The notes under the pieces were generated by a model. The model searched no databases, was not told the DNA's origin, and saw only the letters and a program-made list of their open reading frames with translations. The translations under genes were made by a program, and so were the position numbers. A DNA stretch of 44,380 bases from a virus. The stretch lies in IMG/VR virus record IMGVR_UViG_3300033153_006491, positions 1 through 44,380 of that record. One strand, 5' to 3'. Below, in pieces: positions 3,666 to 12,875 of the stretch. The stretch's first letter is position 1. Each line of letters starts with the position of its first letter.

Positions 3666-3694
3666 TTGACATCACGTAATTAGAATTATATTCT
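3666..3694 (+). promoter_or_regulatory. Promoter for the head genes
   Basis: TTGACA (3666-3671), a 17-nt spacer and TATTCT (3689-3694; 4 of 6 to consensus), with an AT-rich tract upstream that could act as an UP element. It lies about 30 bp before the portal start. The perfect -35 and ideal spacing make it the best conventional promoter in the left half of the window. Confidence 0.6.
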
Positions 3695-3725: not shown

Positions 3726-5204
3726 ATGTCACTACTGTCAAGACTAAAATCTGCGTTGTTGGCGGAGCCTAAGCCACCAAGCCGCCTCCCATCTAAGACA
3801 CAAGCAAATCCGAAGTATTTGGGGACCAGTAAGGGAAGTAAGATTTCCAACACTGCAACCAATACCACGAATCTTGATCGTTCTATTTATGCTCGAGGCG
3901 CTGCGAATATAAATGATGTGGTCGCCAATCTCGTTAGAACTTCTCCTGATTTATCTCATGCAGTTGCTGTTAAAATTTCTACAGCAATATCAAAGAATTA
4001 CACTGCTGTTGCTTACGATGAAACCGGTCGTGTAGATGTTAAGGGCACAGAAATCGCCCAGGCCCTATGTCTTCGTTGGGACTCCATGGCCCACGACTAC
4101 AGCCGATTCACCCGTTCTACGGATTTACGTTCACTCTGTTCTTCTCTCATTCTGGATTCGACCAGATACGGGGGAATGACTGCGGAACTTATTCTTGGGC
4201 CCGGGAAGGTCCCACTGTATATCAGGTCCGTTGATACCTCCAAGGTTGAATGGGCCGACAACATGATCGACTCCTATCCTGTGTATAAAGGAAGGGATGG
4301 TGATGTTGAATTAAATTTTCCAACTATTTTCTACAGCGCAACTCAACAGGACATGGGGACGCCCTACAGCGAAAGCCCACTTCAAACTTCTATTCAACCC
4401 GCGCTCTGGGACCAGGAGCTCACCGACCATCTTCGTCGGGCCGCACACCGTACCCTTCTCCAACGCCTTGTTATTACTATCAATTCTGAGGAATGGTTAG
4501 ATAGTCTTCCTCCAGAAATCAGATACGATGAGGATAAGTTAGCCGCTCATACAAAACAAACAATCACAGAAATTGAAAATCAGATGAATAATCTGGATCC
4601 TGAGGATTCATTAATCGTATTTTCAAGTCTCTCTGTTGACACTGTCCAGGATGCGAACCGGTCCGAAGACCGAACTCTCCTGGTATTGAATGCATTGATA
4701 TCCGGGCAACTGGCGTCAGGGTCCAAGATCCTACCGTCGGTAACCGGCCGAGCCCCGGAAGGGTCCAGCGCAGCTAGTACGGAGGCTATGTTATTCCTCA
4801 AGTCCGTATCCTTCATCCAACATGAAATCAATATTTTTATAAGTCGAATTTTAACTCTTGCTGTGAGGTTAACCGGTCAGGACGTTTCTGTGAAGTTTAA
4901 ATTTGAGGACGTTAACCTTAGACCTGAGATTGAACTTGAATCTTTCCGTGCTATCAAACAATCACGTTTACTCAAGGAGTTAAGTCTTGGACTACGCCCC
5001 GATGAAGAGGTAAGTATTGAGCTTACTGGAAGTCTTCCTCCGGCCGGATACACCCCGTTAACCGGTACCATGTTTGATGTGAAGCCGGCTGAAACTTCCG
5101 GAAATAATTATAGCAACACCTCTGCTGCTGATAACGGCAAAACTGATTCAACCAAATCCACGAAAGACAGCCAGGCAGACGAAAAAGGTGTGAAGAGTAA
5201 ATAA
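3726..5204 (+). CDS. Portal protein
   Basis: A 492-residue protein taken as the portal, the dodecameric ring through which DNA enters the head. The call rests on its place between a GpA-type terminase and an S49 head protease, on length (portals are about 400-550), and on a portal-like order: helical N-terminus, mixed core, then a helical stretch around ALWDQELTDHLRRAAHRTLL (about 225-245) and a disordered Ser/Thr/Lys-rich tail from about 455. I chose ATG 3726 over the in-frame TTG at 3714 because it gives a more usual N-terminus (MSLLSRLKSALL); neither has a strong Shine-Dalgarno. No enzyme motif is expected or seen. Confidence 0.8.
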   Translation: MSLLSRLKSALLAEPKPPSRLPSKTQANPKYLGTSKGSKISNTATNTTNLDRSIYARGAANINDVVANLVRTSPDLSHAVAVKISTAISKNYTAVAYDETGRVDVKGTEIAQALCLRWDSMAHDYSRFTRSTDLRSLCSSLILDSTRYGGMTAELILGPGKVPLYIRSVDTSKVEWADNMIDSYPVYKGRDGDVELNFPTIFYSATQQDMGTPYSESPLQTSIQPALWDQELTDHLRRAAHRTLLQRLVITINSEEWLDSLPPEIRYDEDKLAAHTKQTITEIENQMNNLDPEDSLIVFSSLSVDTVQDANRSEDRTLLVLNALISGQLASGSKILPSVTGRAPEGSSAASTEAMLFLKSVSFIQHEINIFISRILTLAVRLTGQDVSVKFKFEDVNLRPEIELESFRAIKQSRLLKELSLGLRPDEEVSIELTGSLPPAGYTPLTGTMFDVKPAETSGNNYSNTSAADNGKTDSTKSTKDSQADEKGVKSK

Positions 5205-5223
5205 TAAAAGCATTGTGCATTAC

Positions 5224-5252
5224 TTGACAAACTAACTTTAAACAGGTAGTTA
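5224..5252 (+). promoter_or_regulatory. Weak promoter before the head protease
   Basis: TTGACA (5224-5229), 17 nt, then TAGTTA (5247-5252; 3 of 6). The sequence TTGACAAAC repeats the element seen at 1037 and 1326. It lies in the 55-bp gap after the portal gene; the protease ATG follows at 5260. Confidence 0.4.
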
Positions 5253-5259
5253 ATAAATT

Positions 5260-6702
5260 ATGAAGAAACAATATGTTGCACTCGCTATCTTAGAGACTTA
5301 CGGAGCAGAATTTCTGGAAGCGGAAGCTTCGGCCCAGGCCGAATTATCTTCTGGTTCAGAAGCGCCTGAATCTGACCTTCTTAATGTTTTTGAAGGGGTA
5401 GGAGTTATTGAAGTTAAAGGAAAGCTGACCAACAAGGATTCGTACTTTAATTCCTGGTATGGTCTTGTATCCTACAACCAAATTCGCGCAGCTGTTGTTG
5501 AGGCCCTGGAACTTGGGGCCAACGCCATTCTCTTTGATTACGACACCCCGGGCGGGGCCGTATCAGGAATGGGCGACCATTCAAATTTTATCTCCTCCAT
5601 TCCAGTTGAAACTGTAGGACACACTTCCGGAACCATGGCTTCGGCCGGGTATTTCTCTGGAGCTTCTAATGATCATCTCTTCGCAGATGAATTATCTGAG
5701 GTTGGATCTATTGGTGTTGTTATGCAGCACATGGAAATGACAGAGGCTGTTAAGAAAGCCGGTTATAAGGTCGACATCATTCGATCCGGATCCCGTAAAG
5801 CTATCGGGGGTCCTTATGAGAAGTTAACCGCTACAAATCGAAAAATATTACAAGACCAAGTCAACGTTTATGCGGACAAGTTTTTTAGTTTTGTTTCAGA
5901 AGAACGTGGAATGCCTTTGCCTACCATGACTGATATTAAGGAAGGCGGGACATACATTGGTCAAGAAGCTGTACAGGTTGGTCTTGTTGATAAGATCATG
6001 TCCTTTGATGAGGCTCTGGCCTTTACCATAGGCCTGGCGCAAAAGAAAGCCGCTGAAGATGAGAACCAAGGTTTTAATGATTATTATGGGAATAATCATG
6101 CTTTCAATAGCTCCACGGAGCAAAAAGGAGAACAAGGTATGGCTGCTAAAAAGATCAGCAAAAAAGCCTTAGCCGCTCTGGTTAATGCAGGAAATGAAAA
6201 ACCTGCTCCCGGAGCAGACGACGGAAAAGAAGAAAACACCAACGTACCTGCTGAAGGTGCAGATGAAAATCTTAACACAGAAGATACTGAAGGTACCACC
6301 GAGGCCGAGGCCATGGAAGATACCCCGGATCTTTCCGCTGAATTACTTGAGATGACTGAGAAGTATGATGCTTCCCAGGTAGAGCTTGCTGAATCAGCTG
6401 AGAAGTTGGAAGCTTCTGAAACCGTTCTTGCTGATTTGAGCGAGAAACACAGTGCAGAGGTTGCTGATTTTAGTGAGGTCATCATCGCTCAGATTAATAC
6501 CATGCGGGTCGCCCTCAACCTGACTGCTGTTGATATGAGTGCATTTGCTCCTACTGCTGTAATGGTTGAGTACAATGCCCTGATGAAAACTTTTGAGAAC
6601 TCTCTGCCTGTTGGTGGTGTGGTTCCAAATGAACAAGCTGAAACTAAATCTGAAACCGTCAGTCGAACTGATGTCGGTGATGTTAAAGCTCTCGCATTCT
6701 AA
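5260..6702 (+). CDS. S49 (SppA/ClpP-like) head maturation protease with C-terminal scaffold
   Basis: A 480-residue protein equivalent to lambda gpC. Residues about 45-265 form a peptidase S49 domain: a substrate-groove segment DYDTPGGAVSGM (93-104), the nucleophile motif GTMASAGY with likely Ser128, the following GSIGV (149-153), and the likely general base Lys180 in GSRKAIGGPYE. After about residue 265 comes an acidic, low-complexity, helical region that matches a scaffolding domain. An independent start inside this region (ATG 6139) implies that the scaffold is also made alone. The enzyme should cleave scaffold, and perhaps portal, inside the prohead. It follows the portal by 55 bp and precedes the probable decoration and capsid genes. 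Confidence 0.9.
   Translation: MKKQYVALAILETYGAEFLEAEASAQAELSSGSEAPESDLLNVFEGVGVIEVKGKLTNKDSYFNSWYGLVSYNQIRAAVVEALELGANAILFDYDTPGGAVSGMGDHSNFISSIPVETVGHTSGTMASAGYFSGASNDHLFADELSEVGSIGVVMQHMEMTEAVKKAGYKVDIIRSGSRKAIGGPYEKLTATNRKILQDQVNVYADKFFSFVSEERGMPLPTMTDIKEGGTYIGQEAVQVGLVDKIMSFDEALAFTIGLAQKKAAEDENQGFNDYYGNNHAFNSSTEQKGEQGMAAKKISKKALAALVNAGNEKPAPGADDGKEENTNVPAEGADENLNTEDTEGTTEAEAMEDTPDLSAELLEMTEKYDASQVELAESAEKLEASETVLADLSEKHSAEVADFSEVIIAQINTMRVALNLTAVDMSAFAPTAVMVEYNALMKTFENSLPVGGVVPNEQAETKSETVSRTDVGDVKALAF
6139..6702 (+). CDS. Nested capsid scaffold protein (Nu3-like), internal in-frame start
   Basis: Within the protease frame, AAGGAG (6125-6130) stands 8 nt before an in-frame ATG (6139-6141) exactly where the protease domain ends. 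Translation from it gives a 187-residue acidic, helical protein (MAAKKISKKALAALVNAGNE at the N-terminus) with a coiled-coil-like Glu/Ala/Ser/Leu middle (ELLEMTEKYDASQVELAESA). This is the arrangement of lambda C and Nu3, where the scaffold is made in excess from an internal start of the protease gene. The strong Shine-Dalgarno is seen directly; separate expression is inferred. Confidence 0.75.
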   Translation: MAAKKISKKALAALVNAGNEKPAPGADDGKEENTNVPAEGADENLNTEDTEGTTEAEAMEDTPDLSAELLEMTEKYDASQVELAESAEKLEASETVLADLSEKHSAEVADFSEVIIAQINTMRVALNLTAVDMSAFAPTAVMVEYNALMKTFENSLPVGGVVPNEQAETKSETVSRTDVGDVKALAF

Positions 6703-6721: not shown

Positions 6722-7138
6722 ATGCCTAGCGTACAAATTTTGCCAAAAGTTGGCGAGAATGATCGTCGTGAATGGAAGATGGTTGGGGCGGTTACCGATG
6801 CTGATGTTGGTAAGCCTGTAACCATTACTGGTGCTGCCGAGGTAACCCTCGCTGTAGCTGATGGAATCATTCATGGTTTTGTGGATTCTATTGAACAGGG
6901 CACTGATGGTGGTCTTGTTGTTGTTACGGTTGCTGAAAAGGGCACTGTACGTGCTTCTGCATCTGGCGATGTTGCCGTTGGTGATGTAGTAGCAGCTGAT
7001 ACTAATGCTGCACTCGGAACCAAACCTACCACTTGGGGTATTGTGAAAGCCATCGCTGTTCCAGACGCTGGTCAAAAATACTGGATTGCTCTCACCGCAG
7101 CTGCGGATACTGAGACAGTCATCATTCAAGCCGTTTAA
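6722..7138 (+). CDS. Probable head decoration protein
   Basis: A 138-residue, small, beta-rich, Gly/Ala/Val-rich protein with no cysteine, preceded by a strong AAGGAG site. It occupies the lambda gpD position between the protease/scaffold gene and the capsid gene. Decoration proteins bind threefold or quasi-threefold sites and stabilise the expanded shell. The repeated VAVGDVVAAD and TDADVGKPVT patterns resemble the beta-tulip or DUF2190-type cement proteins found beside phage capsid genes; that is family-level recollection. Only 12 bp separate it from the capsid gene. Confidence 0.65.
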   Translation: MPSVQILPKVGENDRREWKMVGAVTDADVGKPVTITGAAEVTLAVADGIIHGFVDSIEQGTDGGLVVVTVAEKGTVRASASGDVAVGDVVAADTNAALGTKPTTWGIVKAIAVPDAGQKYWIALTAAADTETVIIQAV

Positions 7139-10022: not shown

Positions 10023-10507
10023 TACATGATAACTTATCAGATATCGTCAGAAACATGGATGTCATGGAGGTCGCTGTTTATAAGGAAGTGGGCGAAACCC
10101 TGGCTAAAGCAATTTGGAAAGAGTTTGAGCAATTGGTAAAAGAAACTCCACAATGGTCAGGCACGTCTGCTGCATCCTGGAATCTGTCAATTGGTGGTTC
10201 TGGTGGCCTTTCTGGTGTTCGCAATATGCCTGAACGAGATCCTAAAACAGCACTACAAAAAGGACATATGCATGCTGTTGATGTGGCTTTGGCTTCTAAC
10301 CTTAATAGCTTGCAAGATCTTAGTGATCAGTTCAAGCCTGGTCGGATACGAAATGCCGGAATTGTAGTTGAGAATTATGCTCCTTTTGTTGATATAACAG
10401 AGTCTGGCCATGTGAGAGATGTGAATCTTCCTAACGGTGCTTTTGCCAGGTTTCAAGAGCGTGTGGCTTTTATGATTTTTGAACCTTTAAGGAATAGAGT
10501 ATTATGA
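10019..10507 (+). CDS. HK97 gp10-like minor tail/neck protein
   Basis: A 162-residue protein. The N-terminal half is a long helix, followed by VKETPQWSGTSAASWNLSIG (about 40-60), the signature region of HK97 gp10/lambda Z-like tail-completion proteins, which have a TPVDTG-R-aliphatic pattern at this place. The end of the protein (VENYAPFVDITESGH) also fits the motif seen there in that family (N..PYA..vE.G). It likely helps to join or complete the tail at the neck. ATGA-type overlaps at both ends show coupling. Confidence 0.7.
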   Translation: MIHDNLSDIVRNMDVMEVAVYKEVGETLAKAIWKEFEQLVKETPQWSGTSAASWNLSIGGSGGLSGVRNMPERDPKTALQKGHMHAVDVALASNLNSLQDLSDQFKPGRIRNAGIVVENYAPFVDITESGHVRDVNLPNGAFARFQERVAFMIFEPLRNRVL

Positions 10508-10923
10508 TCTCACTTGAAGAAGTAAGGCAAAGTGTTGTTGCAGCTTTCAAGGATGTGCATGATACACACTATTCCTCTACCTTAGTCAATTATCCAAATT
10601 TCACTGTGGTGGATCTTGAACATCAGACCGACCCTTTTGTGAATGTTGAACTTGATTTTACGAATACTGAGCAGGCTGCTTTAGGTGAAAAGGAAATCTA
10701 TGTTCACGGAATTCTATATGTGACCTTTTATTTTCGGGATGGTTCCGGGATGTCTGGGGCCTATTCTTACACAGATATGCTCAACCAGTATCTCGGGATG
10801 AGTGTCTTTAACTCAATTGGATACCAGGCCGCAAAGGTTATCAATATTCAGACTTTTCCTGGGTGGCAGGGTAGCATGAATCAAATACCTTTTGACATTG
10901 TTACTGAGGCTAATTGTTCGTAA
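10504..10923 (+). CDS. Tail terminator-like protein
   Basis: A 139-residue alpha/beta protein: N-terminal helix (ISLEEVRQSVVAAFKDVHD), then strands with FVNVELDFTN and IYVHGILYVTFYFRDGSG, a helix (SYTDMLNQYLG), and a C-terminal strand. This topology and the location directly before the tail tube match the lambda gpU/SPP1 gp17 tail terminator group that caps the tube at its head-proximal end. No exact family is claimed. It ends convergently with an antisense gene, with a 14-bp overlap of the two coding ends. Confidence 0.6.
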   Translation: MISLEEVRQSVVAAFKDVHDTHYSSTLVNYPNFTVVDLEHQTDPFVNVELDFTNTEQAALGEKEIYVHGILYVTFYFRDGSGMSGAYSYTDMLNQYLGMSVFNSIGYQAAKVINIQTFPGWQGSMNQIPFDIVTEANCS

Positions 10924-11098
10924 ACCGGTCTGTGACCGGGTCGTATTGTTTTGATACCGGGGCTGTCCTTTTATGAAGTAAGTCTTGAATTGCCTCTCTA
11001 ATTAATTCACTCACATTTCTACCTTCTGTCAAACTGAGGTCTTTTAGTTTGACCCAGATCGAATCCTTTATAACAATACTCCGTCTTTTTGTTCTCAT
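10910..11098 (-). CDS. Ribbon-helix-helix transcriptional regulator (antisense cargo gene)
   Basis: A 62-residue protein. Residues 4-43 are a complete MetJ/Arc/CopG fold: the DNA-binding strand KRRSIVIKD (4-12), helix A (SIWVKLKDLSLTEG), the conserved Gly-Arg-Asn-Val-Ser-Glu turn, and helix B (SELIREAIQDLLHKR). It should bind DNA as a dimer of dimers. It is the only minus-strand gene in the structural operon, between tail terminator and tail tube. Its own promoter's -10 lies inside a 33-bp palindrome, which argues for autoregulation. No Shine-Dalgarno precedes the ATG at 11096-11098. The tail of the gene overlaps the tail terminator gene by 14 bp. It looks like an inserted accessory gene (a 'moron'), or a regulator of the tail genes. 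Confidence 0.85.
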   Translation of the reverse strand: MRTKRRSIVIKDSIWVKLKDLSLTEGRNVSELIREAIQDLLHKRTAPVSKQYDPVTDRFTNN

Positions 11099-11126
11099 AT
11101 TTTTTAAGTGTCCATACAGGCGGTAT

Positions 11127-11159
11127 TGCCAGTGTCATGATAGTATCAGGACACTGGCA
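11127..11159. promoter_or_regulatory. 33-bp near-perfect palindrome, likely operator
   Basis: Arms TGCCAGTGTC (11127-11136) and GACACTGGCA (11150-11159) enclose TGATA-G-TATCA (11138-11148). All 16 symmetric pairs match except 11137/11149. It covers the -10 of the minus-strand promoter, so a bound dimer pair would block the regulator gene. It could also fold as a hairpin in either transcript. Confidence 0.8.
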
Positions 11160-11168
11160 TGAAGTCAA
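11140..11168 (-). promoter_or_regulatory. Promoter of the ribbon-helix-helix gene
   Basis: On the minus strand, TTGACT (complement of 11163-11168), a 17-nt spacer and TACTAT (complement of 11140-11145). The -10 lies at the centre of the 33-bp palindrome. Confidence 0.7.
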
Positions 11169-11188
11169 TGTGATTAATTAAATTCTTT

Positions 11189-11217
11189 TTGACTTCTTTA
11201 ATAAGTGCCTGTACTAT
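11189..11217 (+). promoter_or_regulatory. Promoter for the tail genes, divergent copy of the minus-strand promoter
   Basis: TTGACT (11189-11194), 17-nt spacer, TACTAT (11212-11217). Both hexamers and the spacing are the same as in the minus-strand promoter, and the identity continues (TTGACTTC at the -35, TACTATCAT at the -10). A second palindrome, ATCATT-GT-AATGAT (11216-11229), covers the expected start site and may be another operator. Confidence 0.7.
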
Positions 11218-11227
11218 CATTGTAATG

Positions 11228-11268
11228 ATCCTCCATTGTGGAGGAGTTTATCAACGTTGATGGAGGAT
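11228..11268 (+). promoter_or_regulatory. Leader that can mask the tail tube ribosome-binding site
   Basis: ATCCTCCAT (11228-11236) is the exact complement of ATGGAGGAT (11260-11268), the Shine-Dalgarno of the tail tube gene. It can alternatively pair with an intervening TGGAGG (11239-11244) as a short hairpin. A 12-bp palindrome, ATCAACGTTGAT (11250-11261), overlaps the second arm. The two exclusive pairings suggest translational control, which is untested. Confidence 0.45.
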
Positions 11269-11273
11269 TTATT

Positions 11274-12035
11274 ATGGCATTTACTGGAAGTTATAAAGTA
11301 GCAAGCAATGCTGCTGTTGTCGCCTACGCAGGTAAGACAGAGGAAATGATCATTAAGGGCCTGCAGTCTATAGCCCTACCAATTGGTTTTACGATGAATA
11401 CCACGACCGTAAGTTCCATGGGTGAACGTATCGATCTTGTTCTTCCTACTGGTGGTACTTATGAAGAAGTGTCTGTAAACTACAACTTTGCTTCTGGTGA
11501 TGCTTCCCAGGCTTATTTGATGGATGCAGCCCTTAACAACACTGAGATTCAAGATATGCGTTTTATGGTTGACCATAATATGCTTTGTGGTGACTTTGCT
11601 GCTCTTGACCTTATTTCTGATGATACCGGGTCCTATAGGGTTGGTACCTTCTCCTCTCCTCAGGGCTCTAAGAATGATCTCTTTACCGGGACCGTTTCTT
11701 TCTTGCCTGCAGGACCTTCTACTCTTTTCACTGCCCATGCCAACGGTTCGGATCTTGAATTCGCAACTGGTGCTGGCGGAACTATAACAGCAACACTTCA
11801 GGATTTCGTTGCTTTGGGTTTTGTAGCTGATCAGACTATTATCATAGATCATATGGATACCGGTGTTGATCCTCTGTATTGTAAGATTGCAAGTGTTACC
11901 ACTACTGTGATTACACTCGAAGATGGAATAGGGGATGAAGAACTGGTTACTACTGTGACAGGAATTGATAATGTGACTTCTATTCACGCTGGAACCCCAA
12001 TGATCGCTTCAAGTCTTAGCTCTATCGTTTGTTAA
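11274..12035 (+). CDS. Tail tube (major tail) protein
   Basis: A 253-residue protein. Residues about 1-150 have the tail-tube pattern I recall from siphoviruses: a Gly/Ala start, a beta sandwich with TGGTYEEVSVNYNFASGDAS, a loop, and a FSSPQGSKNDLFTGTVSFLPAGPS motif. The C-terminal part (about 160-253) is an extra beta domain often appended to tube proteins (LEFATGAGGTITATLQDFVALGF, then IIIDHMD). I chose ATG 11274, 6-7 nt after GGAGGAT; an in-frame GTG at 11238 lacks such a site. It has its own promoter, set back to back with the regulator gene, and is closed by a terminator. Confidence 0.8.
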   Translation: MAFTGSYKVASNAAVVAYAGKTEEMIIKGLQSIALPIGFTMNTTTVSSMGERIDLVLPTGGTYEEVSVNYNFASGDASQAYLMDAALNNTEIQDMRFMVDHNMLCGDFAALDLISDDTGSYRVGTFSSPQGSKNDLFTGTVSFLPAGPSTLFTAHANGSDLEFATGAGGTITATLQDFVALGFVADQTIIIDHMDTGVDPLYCKIASVTTTVITLEDGIGDEELVTTVTGIDNVTSIHAGTPMIASSLSSIVC

Positions 12036-12048
12036 TATGTTTTTAGTT

Positions 12049-12106
12049 TGTTGCCTGATGGCTCTGGTCTCCCAGCGGTGGACTAGGCCTGATGGCAACA
12101 TTTTTT
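12049..12106 (+). terminator. Terminator after the tail tube gene
   Basis: TGTTGCC (12049-12055) pairs with GGCAACA (12094-12100), followed directly by TTTTTT. The interior (38 nt) can pair further. GCCTGAT also appears as a direct repeat on both sides. It would keep tube mRNA abundant relative to downstream genes. Confidence 0.75.
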
Positions 12107-12135
12107 AATTCACCGCTCTTAAAAAGGAGATTTAT

Positions 12136-12525
12136 ATGTTAAAGCTTACTAATCGTCGTACAAAATGGTTTACTGTTCCTCAGGATACTTCCGGAGATAC
12201 CCGGATCGAAATACTCTTCCTTAAACCTGGAGAGGTTGCTGATATTGAGGCCAAGTCCAACCAGGTAATAGGGAAGCAGTCAGGTGAGGAGTTTGTCACT
12301 GAGATCGGTTTTAATATGCCACAGCGGGCCAAGGCCTTTGTGTCAAAAGCCGTTGTTGCCTGGGAAGGAGTTCTTGGATCTGATAATCAGCCTTTGCCTT
12401 GTACCGCGAATAATAAACTTGCAGTGTTGAAAGAGTTTGATTGGTTTGGTCCTATGATCGATGGATTTCGTACTGAGCTGTCTGACGAGATTGAATCAGA
12501 GAGGGAGGAGCTCGAAAAAAACTGA
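12136..12525 (+). CDS. Tail assembly chaperone, short form (lambda G-like)
   Basis: A 129-residue protein between tail tube and tape measure, preceded by AAAAAGGAGA. It ends in an acidic helix (ELSDEIESEREELEKN). Position, size and the -1 slippery site at its 3' end identify it as the first tail assembly chaperone, which binds the tape measure before tube polymerisation. Most ribosomes stop at TGA 12523-12525; a fraction should shift to produce a longer 246-residue product. Confidence 0.85.
   Translation: MLKLTNRRTKWFTVPQDTSGDTRIEILFLKPGEVADIEAKSNQVIGKQSGEEFVTEIGFNMPQRAKAFVSKAVVAWEGVLGSDNQPLPCTANNKLAVLKEFDWFGPMIDGFRTELSDEIESEREELEKN
12502..12522 (+). promoter_or_regulatory. Programmed -1 ribosomal frameshift site
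   Basis: The slippery heptamer A AAA AAC occupies 12516-12522 in the right phase (gaA AAA AAC, then TGA). A Shine-Dalgarno-like AGGGAGGAG (12502-12510) lies just upstream, as in the dnaX frameshift cassette where such a site stimulates slippage. Slippage leads into the -1 frame that stays open for 117 codons with a chaperone-type sequence. No strong downstream hairpin is seen by eye. Confidence 0.88.
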
Positions 12526-12875
12526 TTGACTTCAGTGTCTGGCTTAGTGGCGCAGGTAGAACATCTTGTGATATCTGCATCCAAGCTTATGAGGGATCTG
12601 GTAAAGAACCCCCTTGTTATAAATGCCGGCCGGAGCTGAAGAAACCAAATCTTCCTTACTTTGTTTTACACGGGTATTGTCAAGATCAATATATAATGGG
12701 TCCTGGCGGTCCCGTGGGTTTGAACATGCTGGCCGTTGACCTGGCAATGGGAGATTATCATATCGCCCAGGATGAAAAAATTGATTTTTCAACTAAGGTT
12801 CGACGGATAGCAAATATTATCATCTCAGAGAGGGCCGAAGAAGCCGAATCTGAACGCAAGCGAAAGAAAAAATAA
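12522..12875 (+). CDS. Tail assembly chaperone C-terminal extension (lambda T-like, by -1 frameshift)
   Basis: After slippage at 12516-12522 this frame adds 117 residues to the short chaperone. It has no start of its own. It begins LIDFSVWLSGAGRTSCDICI and contains a Cys pattern CDIC...CYKC that may bind zinc, then YIMGPGGPVGLNMLAVDLAM, matching the Gly-Pro-Val-Gly-Leu motif I recall in siphovirus chaperone extensions. It ends in a basic tail (SERKRKKK). The long form should be made in small amounts and link tube subunits to the tape measure during assembly. Confidence 0.85.
   Translation: MIDFSVWLSGAGRTSCDICIQAYEGSGKEPPCYKCRPELKKPNLPYFVLHGYCQDQYIMGPGGPVGLNMLAVDLAMGDYHIAQDEKIDFSTKVRRIANIIISERAEEAESERKRKKK

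Follow-up and report, generated by a model that had tools for sequence, protein, structure and literature searches.

How much of each virion protein a phage makes from one long late operon is generally attributed to translation and terminators. Among small ribbon-helix-helix (RHH) regulators, the CopG-type plasmid repressors are autoregulated: each is a short RHH protein with an operator over its own promoter. The P22 arc/mnt region is said to affect the tailspike level, Adams et al. (1985) reportedly being the source behind this effect. To judge by the comparison made here, this region is also the closest known arrangement to the locus described below: in the P22 immunity I region (NC_002371) the genes of the RHH repressors Mnt and Arc, with divergent promoters, immediately precede the tailspike gene within the late operon. 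The arc/mnt region has been called a moron, thought to affect the tailspike level through read-through, in the epsilon34 paper, which defines a moron by its opposite strand, its own promoter and its absence from syntenic phages (PMC2629481).

The present locus resembles immunity I in featuring an RHH regulator, divergent promoter-like sites and putative operators, inserted in a late operon immediately 5' of a tail gene, and in being missing from some syntenic phages. In P22, however, two repressors control the antirepressor gene ant, along with an antisense RNA, and the tail gene is affected by read-through; here a single RHH gene directly faces the tail tube gene, and there is no ant. The locus would work somewhat like the arc/mnt region but is no member of it: its protein has no Arc homology by sequence, and there is no Arc operator. 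With CopG-type repressors it shares a short RHH protein and a putative operator over its own promoter but, unlike theirs, its other putative target, lying on the opposite side, is a gene for a virion protein instead of one for replication.

We propose, with a probability of about 0.55, that the gene encodes an autoregulated RHH repressor having the tail tube promoter as second target. If true, a single virion gene inside a late operon would clearly be controlled at the level of transcription, and the suspected effect of P22 arc/mnt on the tailspike level would have a direct-acting counterpart. The three phages found to carry the gene are natural variants for testing; in one of them a homing endonuclease separates gene from promoter.

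The RHH gene and its neighbours

The window analysed is a 44,380-base IMG/VR virus record, an incomplete virus genome, and whole-window motif counts refer to these 44 kb. It contains the late region of a long-tailed phage, with terminase, portal, S49 protease, major head protein, tail terminator, tube, chaperone, tape measure and tail genes. The genes at the locus are:

10504-10923, plus strand: tail terminator gene (phrog_179 match, 1e-5; orthologues in relatives; convergent with the RHH gene)
10910-11098, minus strand: RHH gene, 62 aa, putative autorepressor (open reading frame; RHH_3 and PHROG matches; orthologues at the same place in the relatives L002 and L003)
11274-12035, plus strand: tail tube gene, 253 aa, putative controlled gene (gene order; 75% identical in L002, 67% in L003)

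An RHH gene on the opposite strand between tail terminator and tube, as the original prediction had it, was confirmed. Its 3' part shares 14 bp with the end of the terminator gene, and its product matches PF12651, RHH_3, with an E-value of 4.8e-6 and 26.9 bits, above the gathering cut-off of 21.6, as well as PHROG 3180, 'Arc-like repressor' (5.4e-5). In the protein model helices 12-25 and 29-45 are predicted at a pLDDT of about 90, the strand being unformed in the monomer; the best PDB neighbours are RHH proteins, yet every E-value exceeds 0.1. Fold family and size agree with RHH_3 and PHROG 3180; the difference is a C-terminal YDPxTD tail, located outside the RHH fold and kept in all three RHH proteins, with which the protein forms a subfamily of its own. 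A clear ribosome-binding site is absent before the window's RHH gene and present for those of L002 and L003.

The window and L003 proteins had no matches among 50,697 phage records, and the L003 protein none in the plasmid collection. Searching genome contigs with tube and RHH protein queries produced two generic RHH matches; the one inspected adjoins a restriction-type operon. A weak Antitox_RHH Pfam match, below cut-off, might suggest an orphan antitoxin-like gene derived from a toxin-antitoxin pair, which we regard as extremely improbable, given a conserved YDPxTD tail without a partner. A type II antitoxin proper was rejected: in none of the three phages does a toxin gene lie beside the RHH gene, for which PADLOC finds nothing.

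The tail tube was assigned from gene order: next comes a chaperone that has an A AAA AAC slippery site, followed by the tape measure gene. Profile searches yielded no family match for the tube protein, and its AlphaFold model was poor (pLDDT 40, probably from lack of alignment depth) and was left unused. The chaperone terminates with GAA AAA AAC TGA (window 12510-12530), the -1 frame at its slippery site being open to 12875, as in lambda G/GT.

The divergent promoter region

The 175-bp gap between the RHH and tube genes features:

11127-11159, no strand: 33-bp dyad centred on the minus -10 and covering the start, the putative main operator (pairing at 15 of 16 arm positions; shuffles)
11140-11168, minus strand: promoter-like site in front of the RHH gene: TTGACT-17-TACTAT, its -10 preceded by TGn (sequence scan; start predicted near 11133)
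11189-11217, plus strand: promoter-like site in front of the tail tube gene: TTGACT-17-TACTAT (sequence scan; start predicted near 11224)
11216-11229, no strand: 14-bp palindrome ATCATTGTAATGAT, imperfect, where the plus start is expected; putative second operator (sequence)

The two sites pointing away from each other with the same hexamers and a spacing of 17 are present as originally described, and exact TTGACT-N17-TACTATCAT is found in the 44-kb window at these two outward-facing sites only. Promoter-like hexamer pairs in general are at chance level, 10 observed versus 9.9 expected in 5 kb: taken by themselves the hexamers do not exceed chance, and it is the combination of features that carries weight. 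The identity claimed to extend beyond them does exist, the sites being alike at 21 of 32 ungapped positions (matched in 3 out of 200 shuffles) and sharing exact blocks of 8 and 9 (27 out of 2000), but it is weaker than it looks; the likeness is moderate, with p about 0.015.

One -10 does lie, as had been noticed, within a 33-bp palindrome, whose pairing of 15 was reached in none of 1000 dinucleotide shuffles of the gap, the best shuffle attaining 13. Autorepression via this dyad over its own -10 and start is the most secure of the predicted steps: the RHH protein would bind it as paired dimers and shut its own promoter. The palindrome announced after the other -10 is there too, although with 12 of 14 positions paired it is unremarkable by itself. 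At this weaker palindrome, at the start of the tube promoter, partial or earlier-released repression is plausible: the protein may bind it and keep the promoter repressed until dilution or loss of the repressor.

The original prediction also likened the core ATGATAG to the Arc operator. As a sequence comparison this is correct, in that the annotated P22 O_arc is ATGATAGAAGCACTCTACTAT and ATGATAG equals one of its half-sites at 7 out of 7 positions. The Arc operator as such, ATGATAG-N7-CTACTAT between -35 and -10, is nevertheless not found in the window, where one 7-bp half matches and falls on the -10, nor is ATGATAG kept in the L002 or L003 regions. An Arc-type operator was accordingly rejected, the coincidence with the -10 being best taken as chance plus promoter constraint. 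Kinship with the Arc family was likewise discarded: BLASTP of the RHH protein against Arc gave no alignment, and forced alignment yields about 12% identity to Arc and 20% to Mnt.

Related phages and origin of the gene

Relatives were sought in IMG/VR with protein queries (tube, RHH, terminator and upstream gene), used singly and/or aligned. The resulting group has three members (the window, L002 and L003), none cultured and all known from sequence; no further relatives were found among IMG/VR viruses, genome contigs, annotated phages and plasmids. What is new here is that in both relatives an RHH gene occupies the same place and strand, with a divergent promoter region upstream. In L002 it occupies 5591-5788, minus, is 45% identical over 53 aa (E 4e-17) and ends 26 bp inside the tail terminator gene; in L003 it occupies 3931-4116, minus, and is 56% identical to the window's. 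Overall, the three proteins are 41-56% identical. Identities by codon position are 0.56/0.69/0.32 and 0.52/0.66/0.44; being lowest at third positions (0.32-0.44), they indicate selection on the protein.

A 212-bp gap follows the RHH gene in L002, where a plus site towards the tube, TTGACA-16-TACAAT, scores 11/12 and is the best in its 9.5 kb. In L003 the promoter region contains a minus-strand TTGACA-17-TACTAT (10/12), and the plus site towards the tube is weak. L003 also harbours a 1.7-kb homing-endonuclease gene (4089-5753, minus, 554 aa; phrog_559, phrog_3339), which separates the RHH gene from the divergent promoters, encodes a C-terminal Mom-like domain and overlaps the RHH start with its end.

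Repeats recur around these promoters. Inverted TTATGTAATA copies overlap the minus promoter region of L002, their inverted-repeat score being reached in 4 out of 300 shuffles, and lie off its best plus promoter, on the upstream side; L003 has a perfect ATCAATCGATTGAT at the place matching the window's ATCATTGTAATGAT. The gap DNA is, however, divergent among the three phages: the operator-like repeats differ in sequence and share no common motif, and the window's 33-bp dyad is absent from L002 and L003 despite the kept gene. Diverging repeats would fit a regulator and operators evolving together; unrelated repeats would look alike too.

The suggestion that the gene acts as a switch on itself and the tube is partly supported. 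Gene, strand, position and divergent promoters are kept in both relatives, with repeats on promoters, and it is these relatives that, in our assessment, carry most weight for the proposal; on the other side, the repeats differ between phages and, in L003, the homing-endonuclease gene separates the RHH gene from the promoters and the plus promoter is weak; the window's RHH gene, moreover, lacks the clear ribosome-binding site of its two counterparts.

A comparison with phages lacking the island had also been called for. Vibrio phage SHOU24 and Pseudomonas phages Lana and UAntarctica have the same gene order and distant head-gene homology (24-27%); none of them has an RHH gene between terminator and tube, where they have gaps of 20, 5 and 0 bp, respectively, in agreement with an inserted island. 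Profile comparison found no match between the window and SHOU24 tubes and a weak one only between their tail terminators, so that the comparison with SHOU24 rests on gene order and head-gene homology. Either the gene was inserted in the lineage of the window or theirs lost it; the event would be old, since the RHH proteins have diverged to about 41% identity; an insertion would be conserved in the window's lineage rather than stray.

The original prediction had offered, as an alternative, a moron brought in with its own promoter: the RHH gene, autoregulated, would act elsewhere, for example on superinfection or host genes, the tube would be transcribed by read-through and adjacency would be incidental. 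Opposite strand, own promoter-like site and absence from syntenic phages correspond to the epsilon34-paper definition (PMC2629481), and the arc/mnt region, itself called a moron, acts on ant and not primarily on the tail gene. The alternative is weakened by a location that is the same in all three phages even though protein identity has fallen to 41-56%, by a plus promoter-like site facing the tube in the window and L002 and by the lack of further exact motif copies in the 44-kb window. We consider it possible, if somewhat unlikely.

The same observations bear on an RHH protein controlling mainly promoters outside the window, such as an early or lysogeny switch, the island being just its autoregulated gene. 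The record being an incomplete virus genome, and many Arc-like proteins being immunity regulators, such targets are conceivable; with no other exact operator in the window and the gene kept beside the tube in three phages, we judge this quite unlikely.

The tail tube gene as a probable transcription unit

Two RNA elements flank the tube gene:

11228-11268, plus strand: tube 5' leader, with ATCCTCCAT at 11228-11236 and the ribosome-binding site ATGGAGGAT at 11260-11268 (RNA folding, sequence)
12049-12118, plus strand: hairpin, U-tract and pseudoknot between tube and chaperone (z, compensatory changes in three phages)

In the leader, ATCCTCCAT is predicted to pair either with a local arm (-13.6 kcal/mol with everything else refolded) or with ATGGAGGAT, the ribosome-binding site (-16.6); the same 9+9 pairing is found in L003 (5951-5995) and was not seen in L002. 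A translational layer, in which a local hairpin competes with one hiding the ribosome-binding site, is thus possible.

The downstream hairpin recurs in L002 (about 6770-6843) and L003 (about 6777-6846), with z from -2.5 to -3.2 in the three phages. It consists of a 7-bp outer stem, a TGAT/TGAT-type internal loop and an upper stem; its loop, AGCGGTG, may form a pseudoknot with CACCGCT, directly upstream of the chaperone ribosome-binding site, with 8-9 possible pairs in the three phages. Compensatory changes are A-U to U-A in the pseudoknot and G-C to C-G in the stem. Rfam gave no match to the element, and a pattern scan for the pseudoknot returned many matches, the top ones of which, once folded, included no convincing new case. 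SHOU24 and Lana feature plain strong terminator-like hairpins at the same place. The window's hairpin is probably a partial terminator bounding the tube unit.

The palindromes of the promoter region might themselves act as RNA, as hairpins of start-proximal or read-through transcripts that insulate or stabilise the tube mRNA, with no protein operator involved. The 33-bp dyad would give a strong hairpin in late read-through RNA, and alternative tube-leader pairings are common to the window and L003; the dyad, however, straddles the minus -10 and start, is absent from relatives that keep the gene and has no U-tract on either side, so that it is not an intrinsic terminator. This makes an RNA role of the palindromes very improbable.

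With its putative promoter and its downstream hairpin, the tube gene looks like a transcription unit of its own inside the operon. Under the repressor model, the tube, which normally exceeds all other tail proteins in amount, would gain a metered promoter within the late operon, bounded downstream by the hairpin. More speculatively, late transcription from upstream, running antisense through the RHH gene, could cut repressor synthesis, and late onset itself could thereby free the tube promoter. Combined, these steps would make a booster for one virion protein, triggered by read-through that lowers the repressor and opens a second, tube-only promoter, the pseudoknotted terminator closing the unit: a scheme that we regard as doubtful.

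Two other elements were observed upstream in the window: TTGACA-N17-TATATT at 3666-3694, in a 200-bp gap directly 5' of the portal gene, is a possible structural-operon promoter, and units of the GGCAGGCAGCAAGCAGCA type, in which ACTAACTCTACAA is repeated, are arrayed in tandem at 1062-1276, upstream of the late genes.
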